A stretch of 64,000 nucleotides of DNA from Candidatus Obscuribacterales bacterium (GTDB lineage: Bacteria; Cyanobacteriota; Vampirovibrionia; Obscuribacterales; Obscuribacteraceae), in contig JAGVKB010000049.1 of the NCBI GenBank assembly GCA_020050835.1, forward strand, positions 1-64,000, in the 5' to 3' direction. The notes beneath the pieces were generated by a model, which ran no database searches, was not told where the DNA came from, and saw only the letters and a list, made by a program, of their open reading frames with translations. How positions within the stretch are numbered: position 1 is the first letter of the stretch; every line of letters begins with the position of its first letter. Positions 1-61,558 of the stretch are shown one piece after another. The position numbers and the translations under genes are program-made.

Positions 1-334
1 CCGCTAGTACAAAGTCGGCATGCCATACATTCCGCCCGGCTGCCTGCAGACCTTTCAGCGCTTCTGCTCGTTGTGCCATGGACTGGGCATAGCCGCCTGC
101 GAGCCTTTCGTCCTGAACAGTCCAAGTACCGGTTGTCTCTTCCAGAGCGACAAGCAAGCCTTTTGCCTCTTCTTTAGCAAGCAGCAATGATTTCCTTCCG
201 TGCTGATTCTGCAGCTCTTTCCAGTAGTTCGAAACATCTACTTGCACCTGCGACAGCCAGCCGCTTTCATTCGCGCCAGCCTCTTGCCGGTTGGCCGCCG
301 ATCTGGAATTCATCAAAGATGCATCAATGCTCAC
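1..334 (-). CDS. Unrecognised protein, 5' part only (runs off left edge)
   Basis: An open minus-strand frame starts at GTG 334 and stays open to base 1, giving the first 111 residues of a longer protein. The start reads MSIDASLMNSRSAANRQEAG; an in-frame ATG at 310 is an alternative. An AGGA lies about 10 bases upstream of the GTG. The gene begins 25 bases after the stop of the upstream minus-strand gene, so it is probably the last visible member of the same transcription unit. The sequence is hydrophilic and predicted helical (runs such as LLLAKEEAKGLLVALEE), with no signal peptide and no family I recognise. Function unknown. Confidence 0.65.
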   Translation of the reverse strand, partial: MSIDASLMNSRSAANRQEAGANESGWLSQVQVDVSNYWKELQNQHGRKSLLLAKEEAKGLLVALEETTGTWTVQDERLAGGYAQSMAQRAEALKGLQAAGRNVWHADFVLA

Positions 335-50688: not shown

Positions 50689-51681
50689 TTATCGGTAGCG
50701 GTTGAATTGATTGTTGTACCCGTGATGACCTTGATTTCCGCTGCGACCGATCATGTAAGGCAGTTGTCTTAGAAGAGAGCTGGCGCCGCCGCGCAGTAGA
50801 TTGCCGCCGAAGCTACCCTGGTTGTATCCACCGCAACCGTCGTTGTTGTTGCCAACCATATAAGGCAAGGATCCCAGAAGATTGCTTGCTTGATTGCGCA
50901 GCATGTTCTCCATTCCGTAGCCGCCACGACCATAGCCGCCGTAGCCACCAAAAGGCTGATTGAAGCCACCGTAGCCGCCATAGCCACCGAAGGGCTGGTT
51001 GTAGCCGCCCTGGAATTGTTGGTTGTAGCGGCCGAAGTTCTGGTTGTAGCCCTGCTGATCGTAGCCGCCGTAGGGCTGATTGCAGCCGCCCTGGAATTGT
51101 TGGTTGTAGCGGCCGAAGTTTTGATTGTAGCCCTGCTGATCATAGCCGCCATAGGGCTGGTTGAAGCCGCGCTGGAATTGCTGGTTGTAGCGGCCGAAAT
51201 TCTGGTTGTAGCCTTGCTGATCGTAACCGCCGTAGGGTTGATTGAAGTTCTGTTGGTTGTAGCCGCCCCGGAAAGCTTGATTGTAACCGCCGAAATAGGG
51301 TTGAGTGTAACCGGTGTACGGTTGTTGGAACGTGCCTGACTGACAGTTGCTGTCCATGTATTGTTGTGCATAACCCCGATAGGCTGGGTTATGCATGTAG
51401 TTACCGTGTCCAGACGGTTGGAATTGATTGTATGGGCGAGCGTACCTGCTCAGATACTGGGCGGGATCGCCATAGTTGTCCTTTGAGCCGCCGTAATTGT
51501 TGCAGGCCTTGTCTTGCCGCTGTTCGGTCCCGGGCTTGGGTGCGTAAGCCGATTCATAAAGTTGAGCTGCTGCTTGCTTATCTCTCAACTGTGGATTGAC
51601 TGAATCGTCAAGCTTCTCCGTTGCCAACGGTCGCCTGTTTTTGGTTGGACTTTCTGTTTCCAACAAATTGATACTGGCCAT
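50689..51681 (-). CDS. Gly/Tyr/Gln/Asn-rich repeat protein
   Basis: 330 residues from ATG 51681, GGAGGG about 10 bases upstream; an ATG at 51717 is also in frame. The first 60 residues are ordinary and charged. The remainder is low complexity, dominated by Gly, Tyr, Gln and Asn. At its centre are three 27-residue repeats containing NQPYGGYDQQGYNQNFGRYN, followed by GGYGGYGRGGYG. Two copies of (S)LL-x-(S/Q)LPYM(V/I)G lie in the C-terminal part. No signal peptide. Composition is prion-like / phase-separation-like; a surface or storage role cannot be excluded. The first half of the following minus-strand genes is unrelated. Confidence 0.8.
   Translation of the reverse strand: MASINLLETESPTKNRRPLATEKLDDSVNPQLRDKQAAAQLYESAYAPKPGTEQRQDKACNNYGGSKDNYGDPAQYLSRYARPYNQFQPSGHGNYMHNPAYRGYAQQYMDSNCQSGTFQQPYTGYTQPYFGGYNQAFRGGYNQQNFNQPYGGYDQQGYNQNFGRYNQQFQRGFNQPYGGYDQQGYNQNFGRYNQQFQGGCNQPYGGYDQQGYNQNFGRYNQQFQGGYNQPFGGYGGYGGFNQPFGGYGGYGRGGYGMENMLRNQASNLLGSLPYMVGNNNDGCGGYNQGSFGGNLLRGGASSLLRQLPYMIGRSGNQGHHGYNNQFNRYR
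51010..51252. repeat. 81-base tandem repeat, three units
   Basis: The plus-strand sequence starting CTGGAATTGTTGG recurs at 51010, 51091 and 51172, exactly 81 bases apart, with few mismatches. It encodes the 27-residue repeats of the Gly/Tyr/Asn-rich protein. Confidence 0.92.
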
Positions 51682-51946
51682 CTCTAGAAAACCCTCCAGG
51701 GGAGTTGTCGACCGCATCGCTTTGTGGGCAGCAACTGCAGCGTTTCCTCATTTTTCGAGTCCAGCCTAGCTATGAAGATTAGATCCCGAGCTTCATGCGG
51801 TCAATCGTAAAAGTACGCATTAATCTAGCGGGATTGCTCCGGGTGGGCATGGCGGTGAAATTTCAGGGTACTAGCGGGCGTAATAGAATCGCTTTGAAGA
51901 AATAGCAACCAGCATTTAGATCTCCAAGCGGTTTGAAAGATTCCAA

Positions 51947-52018: not shown

Positions 52019-52591
52019 CTATGGTTGGGCGCTTCCCTCCTTGTCCTGCTCAGAACCGCAGCGTGTGCACTGATTGGCGTGCTCAGCGATGTTTTCCCGG
52101 CAGTTCCAACACTGCTTCTGACCGGGCACGTCCCAGTCGACGACGAAGCGATGCGGATAGACGGATGACGGCGAGCTGGTCGGGCAGTTGGCGAGGTATC
52201 TGGCGTAGGCCAGTTTGTACTCGGCGGGCGACAGCAGCTGGAAGTCGAAAGTCGCTGCCACCATCGACGATGGTCCACGGCCGCGTGCGACGGTCACCTT
52301 GAAGTCTCGAATCTTCTTCGGACGCGTTCCGAACGACCTCCGAAAGAGGGATGCAGGCGGCTGGGAAGGGGTGAGAATCTCCTTGAGATCGATCCGGTGA
52401 TCTTTGGGTTCGATCTCGCGTTTGAAGATCTCTTCTCCATCCGACTCGATGGTCAACTCCCCGGCGTCCCGCACCTGGAAGTAAAGGCTGCGATCGCAGC
52501 CTTCGGGGACGCAGACGAAGGTCGTCGTGTTCTCGACGAAGCTTTCGAATGGCTGTTCGGCTGTCGGGTTGCAAACGGTGACGATGTTCAT
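52019..52591 (-). CDS. Unrecognised protein with C-terminal zinc ribbon
   Basis: 190 residues from ATG 52591, GAGGAAAG upstream. The N-terminal about 130 residues look like a beta-rich domain (VENTTTFVCVPEGCDRSLYF, AGELTIESDGEEIFKREI, DFKVTVARGRGPSSMVAATF). The C-terminus is a zinc ribbon, CWNCRENIAEHANQCTRCG (four Cys as CxxC...CxxC). No signal peptide. It follows the Nudix gene on the same strand with a 116-base gap; both carry zinc ribbons. Unknown function; the ribbon suggests nucleic-acid or protein binding. Confidence 0.75.
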   Translation of the reverse strand: MNIVTVCNPTAEQPFESFVENTTTFVCVPEGCDRSLYFQVRDAGELTIESDGEEIFKREIEPKDHRIDLKEILTPSQPPASLFRRSFGTRPKKIRDFKVTVARGRGPSSMVAATFDFQLLSPAEYKLAYARYLANCPTSSPSSVYPHRFVVDWDVPGQKQCWNCRENIAEHANQCTRCGSEQDKEGSAQP

Positions 52592-52707
52592 TTCTTTCCT
52601 CGATACTGACTTTGTGCTACCGCCAGCAGTTGGTGGACTTACCATTTGCCGGTGGTAAGCGGTAAACAGATTGGTGCTGGTACGCGATGGTGAGCCAGTT
52701 CACCGGG

Positions 52708-53301
52708 CTATTTGGGAAGACCGGCGAAATGGCTGTCGATTACGAATTGATGTAACTTGAAGACGATCGGCTCTGGTAGCTTGTCTTGCGTAAAAATCCC
52801 GGCTTCCTTGGCGTCATCGCCGGCGACCGGGTTTTCGCTGACCGGTTTGGCAAGGTAAATCAAGATGATTTCGTTGGCGCCGCTGGGTGGAACGAAAGCC
52901 CCGATCAGCCTGTCAATCTGCACCTTCAGTCCGACCTCTTCGAAAACTTCGCGGATAGCTCCTTGCTCCGGGCTCTCATGAGCTTCGACGTAGCCGCCTG
53001 GTAAAGCCCAGGAGTCAGCGGCCGGTTCGTTTTTGCGGCGCACCATTACAATCCCCTTTCCAGACGGAATGAGGGTGATGGTGACCGGCTTGGGATTGTT
53101 CCAATGCACGAAGGAGCAGCGCTTGCAGGCAATTCGCCGTCGATCCCCGATCGTCCGCCATTCGACCACCCTGCCGCAATTTGGGCAGAATTTGACCGGC
53201 GAGTCGGACATGCGGGCCAGCTGGCGGTGCCTGACTGTGAGACGAATTCCCCAGGCGGCAAGCGCCAGTAAGAGAGCGCATAGCAAGATCGGATTCAGCA
53301 T
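52708..53301 (-). CDS. Membrane-anchored zinc-ribbon Nudix hydrolase
   Basis: 197 residues from ATG 53301, with GGAGG six bases upstream; an upstream start at 53409 is less likely. Parts: one N-terminal membrane helix (NPILLCALLLALAAWGIRLT), a zinc ribbon (FCPNCGRVVEW and ACKRCSFVHWNN), and a Nudix domain with a full box: GGYVEAHESPEQGAIREVFE followed by EVG (GX5EX7REUXEEXGU). The soluble region resembles zinc-ribbon Nudix enzymes such as NudC-like NADH pyrophosphatases, but the substrate is not certain. It lies 129 bases downstream of a coiled-coil membrane protein gene on the same strand. Confidence 0.88.
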   Translation of the reverse strand: MLNPILLCALLLALAAWGIRLTVRHRQLARMSDSPVKFCPNCGRVVEWRTIGDRRRIACKRCSFVHWNNPKPVTITLIPSGKGIVMVRRKNEPAADSWALPGGYVEAHESPEQGAIREVFEEVGLKVQIDRLIGAFVPPSGANEIILIYLAKPVSENPVAGDDAKEAGIFTQDKLPEPIVFKLHQFVIDSHFAGLPK

Positions 53302-53430
53302 GTTTGCCTCCTGCCCCAGAGTCTTGAGGGTAATCGAGAAACGGCAGGCAGCCGCCCGGTTTGAATCGGGCGGCTGCCACCGCAGGTAATGCTTGTCGAT
53401 GGTTCGCAAGCGATCTCGGCAGCAGTCGAA

Positions 53431-54234
53431 CTACTTGCCGAGGTCGCCGGTGAGGTCACGCAGCGCGGCTTCCGCATCGAGCCGGTCGGCGGCGTCGTCG
53501 ATCTCGCGAGAGAGTTTGTCGCCCTTGGTCATGTCGTTCAGGCGGCGGTTCTCGTCGAGCTTGCGCTTGATGTTGGAGCGCGCTTCGCCGATCGTCGAGA
53601 AGCTGTCCTTCAGCGAGTTCATGTCCTGCCGAAACTTGGCGGTATTTTCGAGCAGAGTGGCCAGTTCGGCCTGACCCTTGTCGGACTTGAGGTCGCGCTT
53701 GGCGGACTCGATCTGCTGCTCGAACTTGGCGAGCTCCTTTTCGGCCTCGGCCAGGTCGGCATGCGCTTCGGTCAGCCTCTTCTCGAGGTCGGCCACGTTC
53801 TTCTTGCTTTCGGCATAGTCGGTGGCGAGCTTGAGCAGGGCATCCGGGCTGACGCGAGCCTTCGGGAACGCCTTGGTGAGCGCCTCACCGGTGAGCGGCG
53901 ACGTGAGCGGGACCGCCGGGTCCTTCGGACCGGCCATCGTGTCGAACTTTTGCTTGACCGCATCGCGACTGGTGCCGGCGCTTTCGTAGTCGTGCTGAAA
54001 CTCGTCGACAGTGGCGCCGATCTTAGCCACGAGCCGCTGCTGCTCGGGCAGCTTGGCGGCCAATTGCTTGATGGCGTCGGTCTCGCGTTCGAGGTCGGTA
54101 GCCAGGCTGTTGGCGGCCTTGTCCGCATTGATGCGGGCGCCGGCGCCGAGTTTGGCCCGGATGTCGGGATTTTGCCAGAGGAAGTAGCCGATGGCGCCGA
54201 GCGCGATCAAAACGAGCAAAAGAGTGATACTCAT
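53431..54234 (-). CDS. Membrane-anchored coiled-coil protein
   Basis: 267 residues, ATG behind AAGGAGAAG. One N-terminal membrane helix (TLLLVLIALGAIGYFLW), then about 240 mostly helical residues with strong heptad character (NVADLEKRLTEAHADLAEAE, LAKFEQQIESAKRDLKSDKG, IKRKLDENRRLNDMTKGDKL). The sequence is not PspA despite a similar look. It is transcribed after the 1206-aa TPM/coiled-coil protein (189-base gap), with a shared coiled-coil architecture, so they may form one membrane-linked complex. That is an inference. Confidence 0.78.
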   Translation of the reverse strand: MSITLLLVLIALGAIGYFLWQNPDIRAKLGAGARINADKAANSLATDLERETDAIKQLAAKLPEQQRLVAKIGATVDEFQHDYESAGTSRDAVKQKFDTMAGPKDPAVPLTSPLTGEALTKAFPKARVSPDALLKLATDYAESKKNVADLEKRLTEAHADLAEAEKELAKFEQQIESAKRDLKSDKGQAELATLLENTAKFRQDMNSLKDSFSTIGEARSNIKRKLDENRRLNDMTKGDKLSREIDDAADRLDAEAALRDLTGDLGK

Positions 54235-54423
54235 GATTCTTCTCCTTGATTCGGTCTAGCCGAATTGAATTTTGGCGAAGGTTCTGTGCGAACCACCGGC
54301 CCGCAGTCACCTGCGAGCCGGTAGACATCAGAACTTGTCGGGAGCATCCTTGCTCCCGTTATCGAGAAAACTGACTGTTGCCAGCTTGGGAGCTGGCGAG
54401 AGAGGAGTTGAGTTGGCGATGAG

Positions 54424-57400
54424 CTAGAAGTCGCCCACGCCTTTTCCGCTGCGGCCGCTGTTGCCGTCGACTCCGGGACCGCTTCGACCGGAACTGCTGT
54501 CGTCGCGGTTTGGAGCAGGCGTCTCCGGAGCAGCGTTGTCCGGCTGGCGCTCCGGCTGCGATACCGAGCGGCTGCGGGTGGCCTGTTCGGCTGCGTCTTG
54601 CAGCATCCGCTCACGGGCAGCCTGTTCACGGACGGCCTGGTCACGAGCAGCCTGTTCTCGGGCAGCTTGCTCTCGGGCAATAATCTGAGCGACCGCATCG
54701 GCAGCAGCTGCCAGCGCGACCGTAACGAGATTGCCCACGGATTGAGCGTGAGTAGCCGCGTCCTCATAATTACCGGCATCGAGAGCGGTGCGAGCCGAGC
54801 GCAGTTTGCCGTTGGCCTGACCGAGGTCCGCCGTGACACCACTGCCGAACTGAGTCCTCGACTGACGGACAGTCTGCGACGCTCCGTTAATCGCTGCCAC
54901 CGCGCGGTCGTATGAGAGACGATCCGACTGAGCAAGCATGTCGGCTTCGTTTGCGGTTGTGAGCGCCGTTTTTGCCAGGCTCGCAATCTGCTTCCAGTCG
55001 GAGCGCGGTTGCCGAATCTTGTCCTGGACATCTCTCAGCGTGCTGCGGGCAGCGCTGAGCTTGTTGATGGACGGCTGGCGGGTAGTGCTGTCGTCGACCG
55101 AAATTTGCGCGCTGTTGAGAGCTGTTGTCAGCGACCGGATTTCAGACACCGCTTGGTCGTAGTCGAGCCGATCTTGCTTTGCCAGGTTTTCGGCGTCGAC
55201 GGCGGCCGTCTTTCCGTCCTTGGCGCGGCGAGCGATTGCCGCCCAATCGGACTTGGGCCGGTCCAGCTGCGTCTTCGCTTCGCGGAAGGCGGACTCGGCC
55301 AGATTCAGCTTGTCGAGCGCCGGTTGGCGAGCAGCTAGGTTTCTGGTGTAGACGGTTGCACTATCGATTGCCAATTCGAGCGCCTTAACGCTCGTGGAGG
55401 CATCATCGTAGTTGCGCCGGTCGGTCTTGGCCAGTTGCTCGGCCTTGTTGGCGACTGTGTTCGCTTCATTAGCCCGCCGAGCGAGCGCAGCCCAGTCGGA
55501 TTTTTTCTGTCCGATCTTCGTCTGAAGATCGGACAGAGTCCGCTTGGCCGAGCTCAACTGATCGAGCGACGGCTGGAGCGCGGCCGGATCTTTGACGAAA
55601 CCGGCTGCGCTGTTGACAGACGAAACGAGCGTTTCCAACGCCTTCTCGGCATTGGCGTGCAAGCTCTTCTGTTCGTCGACCGCACGGTCGATCTGCTGAT
55701 AGGAAGCCAGGAGCTGATCGGCTGCGGTAGACGCTGCTGGCCAATCCGCGATGTCCTTTTGCACCTCGGCTTGCTGGTTTTCGAGCGATGGGTTGAGTCG
55801 TGTGTAGGCGCTGTCGGTTTCAGCCGCGGTCGTGAAGCTGTTCAACTTCAGCTTGTCGGCAAGCGTAACGGCCAGCTTAATGGCAGCATCCACAGTGGTG
55901 CGGCTGTGCTCTTTCAGTCGCCGCAGCTCCTTGAGTCGGTGATGGATGTCCTTGAGCTGTTCGGTGGATTCGGAGATGGAGCTGTTGAGCTTCTCGAGCA
56001 AGTCGCGGGCAGCCAGATAGCGCTGCTCGTCGTAGGCTCGCTTCAGCTTGTTCAACTCCGCGCCGGTGGTGTTGGCGACCGACACGGCGGTGTCCAGTTT
56101 TTCCGGTTCGCCCCTGTAGTTCATCGGCAAGAACTCCGCCTTCAGCTCGGTCACTGCCGTCGACGCACCCGGCAACGCGGCCGCCAGCGTATCGTAGTCC
56201 TTGCGAACCGGAGGCAACTGCTTCTCCACGAGCGCCTTGGTCTCCAGCACCTTGTCCACGACTTCGGCCGCCTCGCGAGCGCTGTGCTCTGCTGCGGCTT
56301 TCTTGGCGGCTGCGGTCTCCAGGTCGGCAGACCGCAAGGCGGTGAGCGCATCGGCCAGATGCCGGCCCGCATCGGACAAAGGATGGTCGGGATTGCCGCC
56401 CTCCTCCGCCAGCAGGCTGGCGGCACCGCGCAGGCTCTCCGGCGCGCTTTCGCCGGTTGCCAGCGGATAGAGGTACTGCACCGGTTGACTGCGGGCAGCC
56501 TTGACTCGACTTTCGCTCTGAGCGATCGCCGGCTCGGTTTCCGTGGTCAGCCTGTGGCGGAATTCAATTGCGCTCTTGAGCGACTGGTCGAGCGCCTGGA
56601 TGTTGTTTTCGACCTCCTGGGTGCTTTCGACGGCGGCCAAGGGGTCGGCGTCGATCGTATCGAGAACGCGGGACTGGGCTGCCTTCAGCTCGTCGTAACG
56701 AGTCTTGTACGGGTCGAAGACGAGGTCATTGCCCTGAAGCAAGTCCCTGGTCTGCTCCAGTTTGTTGAACAGCCGCTCGATGTCGAGCTTGTTCTGGTCC
56801 GACTCCTTGAACGAAGTGAAGATCTTCTCCAAGCCGGTGTTGGCAGTATCGAACAGCTCCTTCATGGAGTCGAACAGCGAGGACGGCTGGTAGGTCGTGG
56901 TGCGAAATTTGCCGCCGTAAATGTCTTTCACGTCTTTCAGCCGGATCTCTTCTCCACTGACGACAATCGGCGTTGTCTCCAACATGGCGATCGCCTGTTT
57001 GTACCCGCCGAACGACCAGAACGGGCAGGCTTTGATTGCCGCTTCGGCATCGTCCGCCAGCTTGTTGGCGATCTCGTTGCGAACGGTAAATTCGGAGTAT
57101 GCGTCGACCGCCTTCTCGTACTGGGGATACGTCAGACCAGCGGGGGTGAACATGTCCCGCCAGTTCTTTCGATCCATCAGCAACTCATGGTAGTCCCTGC
57201 GCAGCTGCGCGTAGAAGTCGTTCGAGCTCTTGAGCTTCTTGCGGCGGTCGGCAACCAACCCCAGCGCTTTGGACTTGAGCAGCTGGCGATAGACCGCGAA
57301 CAGAAGCAACAGCAGGGTCAGCAGCCCACCCAGGATGTAGAACGGCAGCACCCGCATGAAGGCGGCATGAGCCTCGGCTTCGGCCGCGGCGCGCTGGGCT

Positions 57401-58044
57401 TCCTGAGCCTCTTTCTCCTGCTTCAGCCGGGCGGCCTCGGCTTCCTTCTGCTTGCGCAGCTCTTCGGCTTGCCTGGCCGCCAGCAGGTCGCTGGTCGCCT
57501 TGTTGACGTCGCCTGCGACTGCCAGCATGAACCCCTTTGGATTCGTCGGCAGGTAGGTCGTCTTGTTTTTGACCAGAGTTCCGTTGGCGGCGTTGAACCA
57601 GCTTGCGTTGAAGCCGTCCTTCTGCAGCTGATCGCCGCCCTGCGCTGCGAGCGAATGAGCGTTCGGATTCTTGCGAGAACGCACTACAAGCACGATCACG
57701 TAATTCTTGGCGGGCAAATTCTTGGCCACCTTCAGCACGTATTGATCGAGCTTCCAAGCGGCGAAGTTCTGACCGTTGGTGCTGCCGTTTGGTTCGGCAT
57801 CCAGCTCGGTCATGATGAAGTAGAACTCATAGCCGTGGACCTTACCCGCATCTTTGAGCTCCTGGTCGCAGTTCGAGAGATCCACCGAGTCCGAAAGCTT
57901 CGGGTCGAGGTAGCTGTGGACCGCCGGGTCGAAATTCTCCGGCATCCACGTTTGAGTGCTCTGAGCGATCGCCGGTGTCGAGATCAGCATCGAGAGCACC
58001 ACCAGCAATGGCATCAAGAACGCCATCGGCCGTTGTTTGAACAT
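54424..58044 (-). CDS. Large TPM-domain/coiled-coil membrane protein
   Basis: 1206 residues from ATG 58044, GGAGG seven bases upstream. Parts: signal peptide (1-27, ending TPAIA), an extracytoplasmic domain resembling TPM (YgcG/Psb32-like; about 38-185: DPKLSDSVDLSNCDQELKDA, NYVIVLVVRSRKNP), a charged helix (190-228), a membrane helix (about 233-253, LPFYILGGLLTLLLLLFAVY), then about 950 cytosolic residues of long helices. Four similar units carry a KSDWAALARRAN / KSDWAAIARRAK / RSDWKQIASLAK motif. A Gln/Arg/Ala repeat (REQAAREQAARDQAVREQAA) precedes a Ser/Gly tail ending GRSGKGVGDF, nearly the same as the tail of the HEAT protein at 60831. TPM assignment is tentative; function unknown. Confidence 0.78.
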   Translation of the reverse strand: MFKQRPMAFLMPLLVVLSMLISTPAIAQSTQTWMPENFDPAVHSYLDPKLSDSVDLSNCDQELKDAGKVHGYEFYFIMTELDAEPNGSTNGQNFAAWKLDQYVLKVAKNLPAKNYVIVLVVRSRKNPNAHSLAAQGGDQLQKDGFNASWFNAANGTLVKNKTTYLPTNPKGFMLAVAGDVNKATSDLLAARQAEELRKQKEAEAARLKQEKEAQEAQRAAAEAEAHAAFMRVLPFYILGGLLTLLLLLFAVYRQLLKSKALGLVADRRKKLKSSNDFYAQLRRDYHELLMDRKNWRDMFTPAGLTYPQYEKAVDAYSEFTVRNEIANKLADDAEAAIKACPFWSFGGYKQAIAMLETTPIVVSGEEIRLKDVKDIYGGKFRTTTYQPSSLFDSMKELFDTANTGLEKIFTSFKESDQNKLDIERLFNKLEQTRDLLQGNDLVFDPYKTRYDELKAAQSRVLDTIDADPLAAVESTQEVENNIQALDQSLKSAIEFRHRLTTETEPAIAQSESRVKAARSQPVQYLYPLATGESAPESLRGAASLLAEEGGNPDHPLSDAGRHLADALTALRSADLETAAAKKAAAEHSAREAAEVVDKVLETKALVEKQLPPVRKDYDTLAAALPGASTAVTELKAEFLPMNYRGEPEKLDTAVSVANTTGAELNKLKRAYDEQRYLAARDLLEKLNSSISESTEQLKDIHHRLKELRRLKEHSRTTVDAAIKLAVTLADKLKLNSFTTAAETDSAYTRLNPSLENQQAEVQKDIADWPAASTAADQLLASYQQIDRAVDEQKSLHANAEKALETLVSSVNSAAGFVKDPAALQPSLDQLSSAKRTLSDLQTKIGQKKSDWAALARRANEANTVANKAEQLAKTDRRNYDDASTSVKALELAIDSATVYTRNLAARQPALDKLNLAESAFREAKTQLDRPKSDWAAIARRAKDGKTAAVDAENLAKQDRLDYDQAVSEIRSLTTALNSAQISVDDSTTRQPSINKLSAARSTLRDVQDKIRQPRSDWKQIASLAKTALTTANEADMLAQSDRLSYDRAVAAINGASQTVRQSRTQFGSGVTADLGQANGKLRSARTALDAGNYEDAATHAQSVGNLVTVALAAAADAVAQIIAREQAAREQAARDQAVREQAARERMLQDAAEQATRSRSVSQPERQPDNAAPETPAPNRDDSSSGRSGPGVDGNSGRSGKGVGDF

Positions 58045-58606
58045 GTGATTGCCTCCAGTTAAGACTGTTCTGCCCATTGGGCGGTTGAAAGGACAATACA
58101 ACCCGCGAGATTCACAATCTCCGGGTCTGACGTTGTAGAGCGTGGCGTATTGAGCGGTTAAGAGATAGTAGCGGGATCGCTAGAGGGTGTGTAACTGATT
58201 GGACGTAGCGAAACTATCAAAGCTTCAAGCTCGAAGCCAGCAATGTGTAGAGAGTTTTGAGTTCATGCACTTTAGCAATTACTCAGATCCTACGCCTACC
58301 TGCCCGAAATTTACCTGAAGTAAAGTGATCGCGAGCGGCGACAAATGCGGCGATCGCCGCTTCTATTTTTGGTGCTTCTTGGTAACCGCCGGGCGGCAGA
58401 GATTGTCGGACATTAATGCGCGCTTGACTAGTGGCGCTAGCGGAGCCTTGCTTCACAATCGTTACTAGCCACTACCGGTGATGCCCAGAGAAAGGCATAC
58501 CGTTTGTTGCCTCGCTGGCCGCACCGTCTATTAGCCGGCCAGCTGTTTCAACAAGAGGGGCCGGTTCAGGGAGTGGATGTCAAGAGTGGGTTTTTTTGCA
58601 AAGGCA
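58045..58606. other. Intergenic region with promoter of the coiled-coil gene
   Basis: 562 bases before the hairpin at 58607. It should include the promoter for the 1206-aa gene. No gene, tRNA or strong repeat is seen. Confidence 0.45.
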
Positions 58607-58640
58607 GAGGCGAGGATAGTAAGCCCACTATCCTCGCCTC
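58607..58640 (-). terminator. Hairpin terminator after the 356-aa gene
   Basis: GAGGCGAGGATAGT and ACTATCCTCGCCTC form a perfect 14-base stem with a six-base loop (AAGCCC), about 80 bases beyond the stop of the minus-strand gene. The T-tract is poor. Confidence 0.6.
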
Positions 58641-58718
58641 GCCGAAGAGACCATTGTTAGCGGGACAGATCCGGTCGCTTGGATCTGTCCTATTGAGCTG
58701 GCTGCGAATTCGCCTTTG

Positions 58719-59789
58719 TCATTTGGGCTCGGGCGGCGTCGTCAAAGGTCCGGTGGCGGACGGTCCGGTTGCAGCCGGAGATGATGCGCCCAGTGTGCTG
58801 GTGCAGGGACAATTGGACGCGGTATGCAAGATCTGCTGCTCGGCCTCGTGCCGGCAGACTTTCATCTCGGCGATCTTGGCCAGCAGTTTGCTGTCCGGAG
58901 CTACTGCCGGACACGGATTGAGGTCGATGTGCATGCGCACCCAGTACATGTTGGTATGGGTGACCGGCCAGCGCGCGGGCAGCTTCAGCGCCGGCGGAAT
59001 GTCGCTTTCCGGCAGGTTCTGCAGGGCAACCAGCCACGACTGCTGAGCATGGTCGCAGGTCGGAAACCGTTTCAGCCCGCGCGCAATCGCTTCGAAAACC
59101 TGCTCGTGCTCGCCGTAGGTGAACGCGAAGCCGATCTTCTTGAGAAAGCGAGCGACGTTGTACCAACTGGGTACGGCATCGATCCGATGATAACCGAGCT
59201 CCTTGAGCAGTGCTGCTGATTGTTTGACGAAGTAAGTTGCCACTCCCGACATCGGTCGCGCCGTCTGCCACGGTGCTCTTCCCAGGAAGAAAACCTGTTG
59301 CCAGAGGTCCAGGAACGTTTTTCCGTCATAGCTCTTCCAGATGTAGTGATCGGGATCGGCGATAAAGTGCCCGAGCGTTCCTTCGACATCAAGTCCAGAC
59401 AGATAGGTGTTGGGATCCCAGGAGTAGATGGACAGCTCGGCTGCCAGAAACCCTTTTGCCGGTAGGCGGTTGCAGGCCTTGTCGGTGTTCGGAAAGAAGG
59501 TCAGAGCTGAGCCGAGTTCGCTCCCGTCCAATTGCCGATCGCGCAAGGCACAGCGCAAGATCGGTCTGTCTTCGTAGAACGCTTCGATCAAGACACGGAT
59601 GCCGTCGCAGCGGAAGAGCAAATGCCCCTTTGCGCCGCGATAGTTAAGTGTCAGAACCGCTTCGGTTTCCTGGCGCTCTGCCAGCGAAAGCGGTAAATTG
59701 AGCTCGATCAGGTCGAAGACGGAGCGGTGGATCAGTCGGCTGAGCAGTTGTGCTGGCTCGGCCTGGCAAAGTTTGCTTGCGTATTGCAT
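58719..59789 (-). CDS. Unrecognised cytosolic protein
   Basis: 356 residues from ATG 59789, which has GGAG six bases before it; a longer start at 59861 is less likely. A helical N-terminal part (QAEPAQLLSRLIHRSVFDLI) leads into mixed alpha/beta sequence (LTLNYRGAKGHLLFRCDGIR, ILRCALRDRQLDGSELGSAL) and then a helical half with HYIWKSYDGKTFLDLWQQVF and KQSAALLKELGYHRIDAVPS. The C-terminus is Cys-bearing (ILHTASNCPCTS) and then Ser/Thr/Pro-rich. No known domain, signal peptide or membrane helix. Upstream of the 1206-aa gene on the same strand, but 674 bases and a terminator away. Confidence 0.72.
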   Translation of the reverse strand: MQYASKLCQAEPAQLLSRLIHRSVFDLIELNLPLSLAERQETEAVLTLNYRGAKGHLLFRCDGIRVLIEAFYEDRPILRCALRDRQLDGSELGSALTFFPNTDKACNRLPAKGFLAAELSIYSWDPNTYLSGLDVEGTLGHFIADPDHYIWKSYDGKTFLDLWQQVFFLGRAPWQTARPMSGVATYFVKQSAALLKELGYHRIDAVPSWYNVARFLKKIGFAFTYGEHEQVFEAIARGLKRFPTCDHAQQSWLVALQNLPESDIPPALKLPARWPVTHTNMYWVRMHIDLNPCPAVAPDSKLLAKIAEMKVCRHEAEQQILHTASNCPCTSTLGASSPAATGPSATGPLTTPPEPK

Positions 59790-60471
59790 TTGAAACTCCA
59801 AAAGAAGACCGGCCATAGCCGGTTTCAATGCTTTTGCTGGTGCTGGCGGTCCAAGGACCACACCAGCGACGAAACTAATTCAATTGGCGCTCAGACTGGC
59901 GAGCCAACGACGAAGAGCTTTGTAGGTGAAGCTTTGCTTGCAGGTGAAGGGTGGTCGTGACCGGTGTGAGCGTCGAGTCTAAGAATCAGATCTCTACCTA
60001 GCAAAATCGAGCGCTGATTCGCAAGAAGAATTAGTCTGACACCGGATAGTCAAGAGACTCTTTGCCCGTATGACTGCTTCACAACCGCTGTGTCACGGCC
60101 AATTTTGATGGACGCAGCTGCATTCAGTATGTGCCAACTGCGCTAGCTAATTGTCGTTTGGCGCCTGACTCCAAAGTCGTTGTGCGGCCTGCTTTTAGCT
60201 GCCCCAAAAACAACCGGTCGAGTTGAGCGCGGCGATCGCTTGACTTGGCGAAAATGCTCATCAAGAGGGAATCTGAGCGAGATCTAAAGCGCTTTCGATT
60301 GCGATAAAGAGCTCTCATTTTCTATGTTGATTGAGCATTACTTAAAACACTTGCTTCAAGGCAAAGCCAAGACTTCATTCCAACTCCAAACGAATTCGCA
60401 CCACTTTTGAAATCTTTCGGTTCGTGCCCACTCAATTGCCGGCGCGTTGAAAGGTATCGATTGGAGGGACT
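59790..60471. other. Intergenic region between divergent genes
   Basis: 682 bases between the 356-aa gene (minus) and the HEAT gene (plus), presumably carrying both promoters. No convincing boxes, gene or repeat seen. GGAGGG at 60464-60469 is the HEAT ribosome-binding site. Confidence 0.45.
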
Positions 60472-60831
60472 ATGACCGAATCGCAGGGAAGAGCGCTTTT
60501 ACCAGACCTCAACAACCCGAGCGCTAAAATCCGTCTCAATGCAGCGCTGCAGCTTACCGTCACCGGCTGGACCTTCGCCATTCCAGACCTGATGCGGTTG
60601 GCCAAGAACGATCCCGACCATGCCGTCCGCAAGGCGTCGATCTACGCGCTCGGTGAAATCGGTGACTATGCACCGTATTCGCTTCTGCAGTCCATCTGGC
60701 AAAGCAATTTCGAGCCTGCTGACGTCGTGCAGGAGGCTCTCGATGCTTGCGACAAGATTGACGGCTTGATCAGTCCAGACCCCGACGATGTCGACGGGGG
60801 GTCGGGCCGTTCAGGTCGTCCGGATTTTTGA
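60472..60831 (+). CDS. HEAT-repeat protein
   Basis: 119 residues, ATG behind GGAGGG. Two to three HEAT-like repeats: NNPSAKIRLNAALQLTVTGW, DPDHAVRKASIYALGEIGDY and VVQEALDACDKI, as in small phycocyanin-lyase-like/HEAT scaffolds. It ends in an Asp-rich linker and then VDGGSGRSGRPDF, which is almost the same as the tail VDGNSGRSGKGVGDF of the 1206-aa coiled-coil protein. Followed 84 bases later by the M17-type N-terminal-domain gene, probably in one operon. Cytosolic interaction protein; role unknown. Confidence 0.8.
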   Translation: MTESQGRALLPDLNNPSAKIRLNAALQLTVTGWTFAIPDLMRLAKNDPDHAVRKASIYALGEIGDYAPYSLLQSIWQSNFEPADVVQEALDACDKIDGLISPDPDDVDGGSGRSGRPDF

Positions 60832-60915
60832 TGAGCGGTCCTACCGGTGGTGTCCGCTCGACTGTCAGTATTTCGGCCAGGCAGGTCAAACTGCCATGGC
60901 TCAAGGAGTAATCAC

Positions 60916-61503
60916 ATGACACCAAAATTCACGATACTCGCCAAAATGGGCGTGGCCGGCGGCCCCGCTGTTGCCGAGCTCCCGACTGACTTGCTCTTGT
61001 TGACGAAAGTGGCTGGCATGGCTCTCGGGCCCGGCCCGCAGTCGGTCGACGAATCACTCAAAGGGCTGATCAGTCGGAAAGTCGATCAGCGCAAGTTCCG
61101 TGGCGAGCTCGCCAAGTCGATCTGTTTCGACCTCGACTCTGAGCCGGCGGACCGCAAGCAAAAACATGTTCTGCTGGTTGGAATCGGCTCCAGCCAGTCG
61201 TTCGATCGCGAAGCGGCCTGCAAGGTTTTCGGCGAGCTGATCGACCAGGCTTTGCGGCTGGGGGTCGAACACGTGACCGTTCCCTTCCCGGCCAACCGCA
61301 CGACCGGACCAACCCTCAACTTGAAAGGGACAGCTCACATCCTGAAGGAAGTGACCGAGGAGAAATGCCGCAAGCTCGAAGAGCCGCCGGTGTTGAAGGA
61401 GATCGTCATCTTCTGCACGCCGCAGGCCAAGTCACACATTCAAGCCGGACTTCGAGCCCCGCTTCGAAGCAAGGGAAGCTGCTGCTGCCCGACTGAACAG
61501 TGA
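60916..61503 (+). CDS. Stand-alone M17 leucyl-aminopeptidase N-terminal-type domain
   Basis: 195 residues from ATG 60916, AAGGAG seven bases upstream. The alpha/beta (macro-like) N-terminal domain of family M17 fits: LPTDLLLLTKVAG, LKGLISRKVDQRKFRGELAK, a central KHVLLVGIGSSQSFDREAAC strand-turn-helix, VFGELIDQALRLGVEHVTVP and VLKEIVIFC. The catalytic C-terminal domain (KSDMGGAAA and NTDAEGR regions) is absent, so it is not a peptidase. A Cys-rich end (GSCCCPTEQ) could be metal- or lipid-modified. Family match by eye. Second gene of a HEAT-led operon ending at a strong terminator. Confidence 0.72.
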   Translation: MTPKFTILAKMGVAGGPAVAELPTDLLLLTKVAGMALGPGPQSVDESLKGLISRKVDQRKFRGELAKSICFDLDSEPADRKQKHVLLVGIGSSQSFDREAACKVFGELIDQALRLGVEHVTVPFPANRTTGPTLNLKGTAHILKEVTEEKCRKLEEPPVLKEIVIFCTPQAKSHIQAGLRAPLRSKGSCCCPTEQ

Positions 61504-61511
61504 TGTCCATT

Positions 61512-61558
61512 GAGGACGGATCTCTCCTAACCGGGAGATCCGTCCTCGAGTTTTTTTT
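61512..61558 (+). terminator. Strong rho-independent terminator
   Basis: GAGGACGGATCTC and GAGATCCGTCCTC form a 13-base perfect stem with a ten-base loop, followed by GAG and eight T. It begins 9 bases after the stop. Confidence 0.92.

Follow-up and report, generated by a model that had tools for sequence, protein, structure and literature searches.

A partly conserved gene cluster of Obscuribacteraceae encoding a TPM-like coiled-coil protein and a putative membrane-anchored relative of PspA

The cluster and its closest described systems

In Bacillus subtilis, the formation of foci by PspA and YdjI depends on YdjG together with YdjH, YdjH binds PspA and YdjI in two-hybrid experiments, and cells lacking ydjG or ydjH become misshapen upon alkali shock (PMC8581546). 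YdjH was described as a TPM protein, in which the TPM domain is followed by a low-complexity region or a long coil, and for TPM proteins encoded beside PspA a chaperone-like role in the assembly of membrane-linked complexes was proposed (PMC11237479). The same paper describes neighbourhoods of PspA, a TPM-coil protein and a zinc-ribbon protein and reports the PspA domain alone in more than 98% of PspA homologues, the remainder being repeats or fusions, e.g. with NlpC/P60 or PspAA; its section 14 mentions no form of PspA anchored by a transmembrane (TM) helix. Here, we analyzed a cluster of seven genes in a 64,000-nucleotide stretch of DNA (referred to as the window; contig JAGVKB010000049.1, G000:C114:1-64000 in our numbering) from the genome (7.0 Mb, 154 contigs) of a Candidatus Obscuribacterales bacterium. 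Its central genes encode a 1206-aa protein with a TPM-like domain and a long coil (TPM-coil protein) and a smaller protein of 267 aa. Linkage of the genes, a predicted TPM fold, the TM topology and a distant relationship to PspA were shown by computation, and from them we infer, with a probability of roughly 0.55, a physical, membrane-bound complex for envelope maintenance and membrane repair, in which the TPM-coil protein would organise a permanently anchored PspA-like protein.

As in the pspA-ydjGHI operon of B. subtilis, as far as the published descriptions cited above detail it, one cluster combines a TM-anchored TPM protein with a zinc-ribbon protein and the gene of a PspA-related partner. 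The ribbon protein of the window (208 aa) lacks a TM helix, whereas the zinc-ribbon protein YdjG has a TM segment; further differences are the TM helix of the PspA-like protein, the far longer coil and an extra gene for a solo M17-N domain. To PspA and Vipp1 (IM30), members of the bacterial ESCRT-III superfamily, the 267-aa protein has a distant profile similarity and may correspond in the order and register of its predicted helices, but it has an N-terminal TM helix in front and stays below the cut-off of PF04012. Similarly, the TPM-coil protein resembles the TPM proteins Psb32, TLP18.3, BA41 and cg2496 in the predicted fold of its outer domain and in its Gly-rich tail, whereas its sequence is below detection by PF04536 and is fused to a coil of about 900 residues. 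The M17-N protein resembles the N-terminal domain of M17 leucyl aminopeptidase, with a match above the M17_N cut-off and profile matches to aminopeptidases in the PDB, but the peptidase domain is absent.

The arrangement therefore looks like a variant of the described theme of PspA, TPM and zinc-ribbon proteins and is moderately, not wholly, new. The statement of a preliminary description of this locus that its parts match no described operon was too strong, given the pspA-ydjGHI operon and the neighbourhoods reported in PMC11237479 and PMC8581546. Searches for a TM-anchored PspA form and for PSP in Obscuribacter, covering titles and opening parts of abstracts of the open-licence literature, found no description of this arrangement.

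Conservation of the neighbourhood and relationships of the two central proteins

Relatives of the TPM-coil protein were detected in 20 of 60 genomes (own genome included), all within the 36 genomes of the same family, and the 29 genomes with a match in a class-wide draw of 382 also belonged to this family without exception. Twenty-nine stretches, chosen for containing matches and not as a random sample, were fetched and contained 22 TPM-coil genes or pieces, 16 of which were followed by 1 kb or more of sequence. In 13 of these 16 loci a relative of the 267-aa protein is encoded directly downstream on the same strand, and six of the 13 carry two or three copies. The 13 include G108, where three tandem genes (L130:3664-6866) all read as broken frames, through decay or an assembly error, and G027, whose copy is weak (E 1e-6). 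The three remaining loci are the full-length G023:C146 and two short paralogues of 480 and 496 aa. Provided that the distant relationship to PspA holds, these 13 of 16 loci share with the pspA-ydjGHI operon a PspA-related gene beside a TPM gene.

Linkage extends to several other genes of the cluster. TPM-coil and M17-N genes are located within 20 kb of each other on opposite strands in 13 of the 16 genomes with both, about 0.28 being expected if genes were scattered over a 5.5-Mb genome, and in 12 of the 16 they lie head to head within 3 kb. The 208-aa and M17-N genes are within 20 kb in 10 of 12 genomes with both (about 0.14 expected on the same assumption), the 208-aa and TPM-coil genes are linked in seven of nine genomes, and the gene of the 380-aa protein lies beside M17-N in five of six genomes with both. 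For these counts 22 of 45 rows were used for the TPM-coil gene (second pieces and weaker paralogues were dropped), seven of 55 for the 380-aa gene (the strong ones), 38 of 43 for M17-N, 51 of 55 for Nudix and all 12 each for the 267-aa and 208-aa genes. The preliminary description had named genes lying apart in most relatives as the outcome that would speak against it. This does not apply to the core pairs, because TPM-coil and 267-aa genes stay together in 13 of 16 loci and the pairs with M17-N in 13 of 16 and 10 of 12 genomes. Small open reading frames (ORFs) were observed between TPM-coil and M17-N genes at L133:1289-1777 (G034; a Resolvase N-terminal match of 20.5 bits, below the cut-off) and at L037:7711-8220 (G026; no domain match). 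Near M17-N, proteins with PLD-like and helix-turn-helix domains are encoded at L045:1863-2723 (G011) and L130:12351-13295 (G108), with HTH_3 above and PLDc_2 below the cut-off.

The TPM-coil protein consists of a signal peptide-like hydrophobic N-terminus, the TPM-like outer domain, a single TM helix, an extended helical coil and a tail rich in Gly and Ser that ends in SGRSGKGVGDF. A third hydrophobic stretch (residues 1124-1142) is weak (mean 1.71), lies within the Ala-rich coil and was not counted as a TM helix. The outer domain was modelled with AlphaFold2 from 14 sequences, with a predicted local distance difference test (pLDDT) score of mostly 87-97 and one dip to 70. In a Foldseek search with this model, ranks 1-8 in the PDB were all TPM domains (E 0.01-0.13). 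In VIA comparisons, which cover the families listed there, 5anp_A reached Z 13.0 (root mean square deviation (rmsd) 3.2, 137 aligned), TLP18.3 and Psb32 reached Z 12.6, and the best unrelated fold did not exceed 7.7. A TPM fold is hence predicted for this domain and, together with the TM topology, agrees with the TPM-like domain that the preliminary description had placed outside. Judged by eye, the window protein has extra copies of a coil repeat of about 90 residues (KSDW/RSDW units), and these extra copies are missing from the other 13 aligned rows. Further TPM-coil-like paralogues, some of them short and with Cys/Gly-rich tails, are encoded at L123:3639-6269 (G000:C54) and L132:4567-6393 (G006).

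The 267-aa protein was compared with PspA at the level of profiles and models. The alignment of its family to 39 PspA sequences of the same lineage by hhalign scored 55.2 over 208 columns (single-comparison E 2.3e-7). None of 150 block shuffles of PspA reached this score (mean 19.3, standard deviation 3.6, maximum 31.5), nor did any of 150 made from the 267-aa alignment (maximum 36.0), and reversed PspA scored 17.5. The score was 43.6 without the first 45 columns and 55.5 without the row of the window protein. In the AlphaFold2 model the part following the TM helix is helical (mean pLDDT 73, poor beyond residue 205). The best VIA row is Vipp1 (Z 12.7), residues 24..203 of the model correspond to Vipp1 2..157 (Z 12.6, rmsd 6.9), and a PDB profile search with the family returned a full-length but weak match to Vipp1 (E 0.41). 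The register of the hhalign alignment, of the model superposed on Vipp1 and of this weak profile match agrees within two residues. PspA is a peripheral membrane protein that uses an amphipathic helix and has no TM helix, and the TM segment at residues 1-19 of the 267-aa protein is at odds with this type. The comparisons suggest that the 267-aa protein is a distant relative of PspA/Vipp1 with its own membrane anchor. An ordinary PspA is encoded in 38 of the 60 genomes, own included. In the genome of the window its gene lies away from the cluster on C55 (163.8 bits), at L122:10388-11146 (G000:C55), where by eye the flanking ORFs look like subunits of ATP synthase and like an SMC protein.

Layout of the locus and accessory genes

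All seven ORFs were found where the preliminary description had placed them (Table 1). Five genes are on the minus strand and would be transcribed in the order 380-aa, TPM-coil, 267-aa, Nudix and 208-aa gene, with gaps of 189 bases between TPM-coil and 267-aa, 21 between 267-aa and Nudix and 62 between Nudix and 208-aa genes; the plus strand carries the HEAT and M17-N genes. A promoter scan of the cluster gave one promoter-like site, on the opposite strand, versus 3.1 in shuffles, and 24 terminator-like sites were counted versus 12.7 in shuffles. A strong terminator-like hairpin (17 pairs and a T run) is present at 61510-61549 (+), directly after the M17-N gene. At 50689-51717 (-) the cluster is adjoined by the gene of a repetitive, Gly/Gln/Asn/Tyr-rich protein of 342 aa without a match in Pfam at E up to 0.001.

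Table 1. Genes and protein features of the cluster in window coordinates, with the evidence on which each row is based.
Feature	Position	Strand	Details and evidence
TPM-coil gene (TPMCC)	54424..58101	-	1206 aa from ATG 58044; 1225 aa from TTG 58101
Predicted extracytoplasmic TPM-like domain (model residues 10-168)	57481..57957	-	AlphaFold2, Foldseek, VIA
TM helix of TPM-coil protein (residues 251-269 of 1225)	57295..57351	-	hydropathy 2.42
Gene of 267-aa membrane-anchored, putatively PspA-like protein (SCC)	53431..54234	-	profile and structure comparison, adjacency
N-terminal TM helix of 267-aa protein (residues 1-19)	54178..54234	-	hydropathy 2.38; model helix 2-21
Putative PspA/Vipp1-like region of 267-aa protein (about residues 24-265)	53440..54165	-	hhalign 208 columns; structural register
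Zn-ribbon Nudix protein	52708..53409	-	ATG 53301; Pfam NUDIX 65.4 bits, Zn_ribbon_Nudix 26.6 bits
TM helix of Nudix protein (41-59), before ribbon	53233-53289	-	hydropathy 2.26
208-aa soluble protein, C-terminal CxxC/CxxC ribbon	52019..52645	-	Pfam below cut-off, alignment of relatives
Solo M17-N (macro-like) domain protein	60847..61503	+	probable ATG 60916; Pfam, PDB profile matches
380-aa protein, no Pfam/NCBIfam family	58719..59861	-	library scans, linkage to M17-N
119-aa HEAT-repeat protein	60472..60831	+	Pfam scan, search for relatives

Both the NUDIX and the Zn-ribbon match of the Nudix protein are above the Pfam cut-offs, and the Nudix box GX5EX7REXXEEXG is kept by eye. Of six Nudix proteins encoded in or close to such loci, four have a hydrophobic N-terminus (by score those of the window, G019 and G023, by eye that of G030), and those of G004 and G029 lack it. 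Since the Nudix protein is also single-pass, the cluster encodes three membrane-anchored proteins, and not only the two (267 and 1206 aa) recognised before; their TM helices and the helical nature of the 267-aa protein were borne out. Core membership of the Nudix gene was not supported, its linkage being loose: distances of up to 20 kb were observed to the TPM-coil gene in four of 16 genomes, to the 208-aa gene in three of 11 and to M17-N in six of 20. The second zinc ribbon that had been claimed, in the 208-aa protein, remains below the Pfam cut-off, with its four cysteines kept in six of 11 aligned relatives, and a hydropathy scan revealed no TM segment in this protein.

The macro-like domain without a peptidase was recovered as described before: the M17-N protein scored 31.0 bits against the Pfam M17_N cut-off of 23.4 bits, and no peptidase domain of M17 leucyl aminopeptidase appeared in the Pfam scan, which listed M17_N alone. 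Its PDB profile matches are N-domains of aminopeptidases (best E 1.1e-6). M17-N is grouped with macro-like folds.

The 380-aa protein matched no Pfam or NCBIfam model at E up to 1 each, and a fold from a PDB profile search was not adopted, with best matches at just E 0.87-0.97. A paralogue is located about 11 kb from the first copy (G000:C114:70890-71648; L125:8741-9895), and paralogues elsewhere often occur as tandem pairs. The HEAT protein, previously regarded as a scaffold, has just 119 aa; none of seven matches in other genomes shares a contig with a TPM-coil or M17-N gene, and its gene is probably a local addition outside the conserved set. Its C-terminal tail (GGSGRSGRPDF) is similar to that of the TPM-coil protein (GNSGRSGKGVGDF), the two genes being unrelated and on opposite strands. 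A defence system was also considered and rejected: partial coil-type matches in PADLOC (LmuB, JetC, PbeC), a HEAT match and a Nudix-domain match (PDC-S07, 3.6e-11) were read as shared domains.

Proposed function and competing explanations

In the complex proposed here, the TPM-coil protein would cross the membrane once, with the TPM domain outside and the long, spectrin-like coil inside, and may serve as a membrane platform. The coil would organise the PspA/Vipp1-like 267-aa protein as effector, which would be fixed by its own TM helix, as opposed to the recruitment of PspA from the cytoplasm; this anchor would make an SPFH recruiter unnecessary. The assembly might stabilise the inner leaflet or help to assemble or repair membrane complexes. 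For the accessory proteins we infer roles within the complex: the 208-aa ribbon protein would probably be a soluble adaptor, and the M17-N protein, which is divergent, and the Nudix enzyme with its TM anchor may have accessory or regulatory roles, a nucleotide ligand of the M17-N protein being conceivable given the nearby Nudix enzyme. The membrane-linked scaffold of the preliminary description is supported as a reading, and the PspA-like protein gives its guess of a relation to stress a firmer basis than the Nudix or HEAT parts do. A non-cycling membrane-remodelling machine, in which a bitopic PspA/ESCRT-III-like protein in recurrent tandem copies would act with a TPM-spectrin scaffold, and M17-N with the anchored Nudix enzyme would link it to a nucleotide signal, is a doubtful extension of this proposal.

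Several results weigh against the proposed complex. None of the seven cluster proteins matched an SPFH/band-7 protein of the pspA-ydjGHI type in Pfam, and the TPM-coil locus at G023:C146 is full-length and nevertheless has no 267-aa relative downstream. Pfam TPM (PF04536) had no match in the genome of the window and matched one of 14 TPM-coil relatives at E 0.05, and in hhalign comparisons with TPM proteins, made with two sets, E was 0.4 and 0.023; the TPM assignment thus rests on the fold, because Pfam and hhalign gave no sequence-level proof. For the 267-aa protein, Pfam PspA_IM30 (PF04012) scored 17.6 bits against a cut-off of 33.9 bits; no family member reached this cut-off, and one of 13 matched at E up to 0.1. 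An HMMER profile of the 39 PspA sequences also matched one of 13 members (E 1.2), and the search in the opposite direction gave a best E of 3.1e-5. With 20 PspA sequences the hhalign score was 28.5, or 28.3 after one misread fragment was dropped. When the rows of the family were divided, the last seven scored 60.5 and the first six, the window protein among them, 26.8, which falls inside the shuffle range, so that most of the PspA signal is contributed by the more distant rows. The link of the family to PspA is therefore good, with the window's own sequence on its far side. Unrelated helical hairpins (YscO, IpaB, colicin) reached Z 11.8-11.9 against the model, so that structure alone does not single out PspA.

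In a rather improbable alternative, the 267-aa protein would have no relation to PspA and be a coiled coil of the ordinary kind, and the set would form a structural membrane skeleton. Coils look alike, and many weak coil matches in Pfam, NCBIfam and PADLOC are in line with this alternative, as is the PDB profile search of the 267-aa family, which was topped by SMC and tropomyosin coils. The family also matches the tail of the TPM-coil protein (43.6 in one slice, 33-38 in overlapping slices; shuffles mean 27.3, maximum 35.6), a homology that is not claimed here. Against this alternative, the match to PspA keeps a single register across 208 columns and exceeds block shuffles by some ten standard deviations, while PspA (39 rows) scores at most 19.8 against slices of the TPM-coil protein. 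It is unlikely that the TPM domain is the working part of a factor for membrane-protein assembly or repair and that the coils merely tether it near a large membrane complex. Psb32, TLP18.3 and a mycobacterial respiratory supercomplex subunit are among the TPM structures matched, and the chaperone-like role of TPM beside PspA argued for in PMC11237479 would fit; yet no respiratory or photosynthetic part is recognisable by Pfam among the seven genes, and the relationship to these proteins is at the level of the fold only, with 10-14% identity.

Descent alone could also have kept the neighbourhood together, with the 208-aa, 380-aa and M17-N genes lying beside purine-nucleoside genes and having no functional tie to the TPM-coil pair. 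In G022 and G032 these three genes are indeed together with no TPM-coil gene between them, and in the window the TPM-coil, 267-aa and Nudix genes are placed between the 208-aa and 380-aa genes. Phosphorylase (PNP) and metalloenzyme genes flank the cluster, with look-alikes at other loci by eye. The head-to-head arrangement of TPM-coil and M17-N genes in 12 of 16 genomes argues against this explanation, several of these genomes having no purine genes in the stretch that was read, and we consider it very unlikely.

If the proposed complex of a TPM-coil platform and an anchored PspA-like protein is correct, the theme of PspA and TPM would be extended to Obscuribacterales, with a PspA-like protein that anchors itself. 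The cluster would then serve as a natural test case for the question whether, in B. subtilis, the TPM and SPFH partners contribute the step of membrane recruitment, and it would give a cellular setting to the long-puzzling TPM domain and to solo M17-N proteins.

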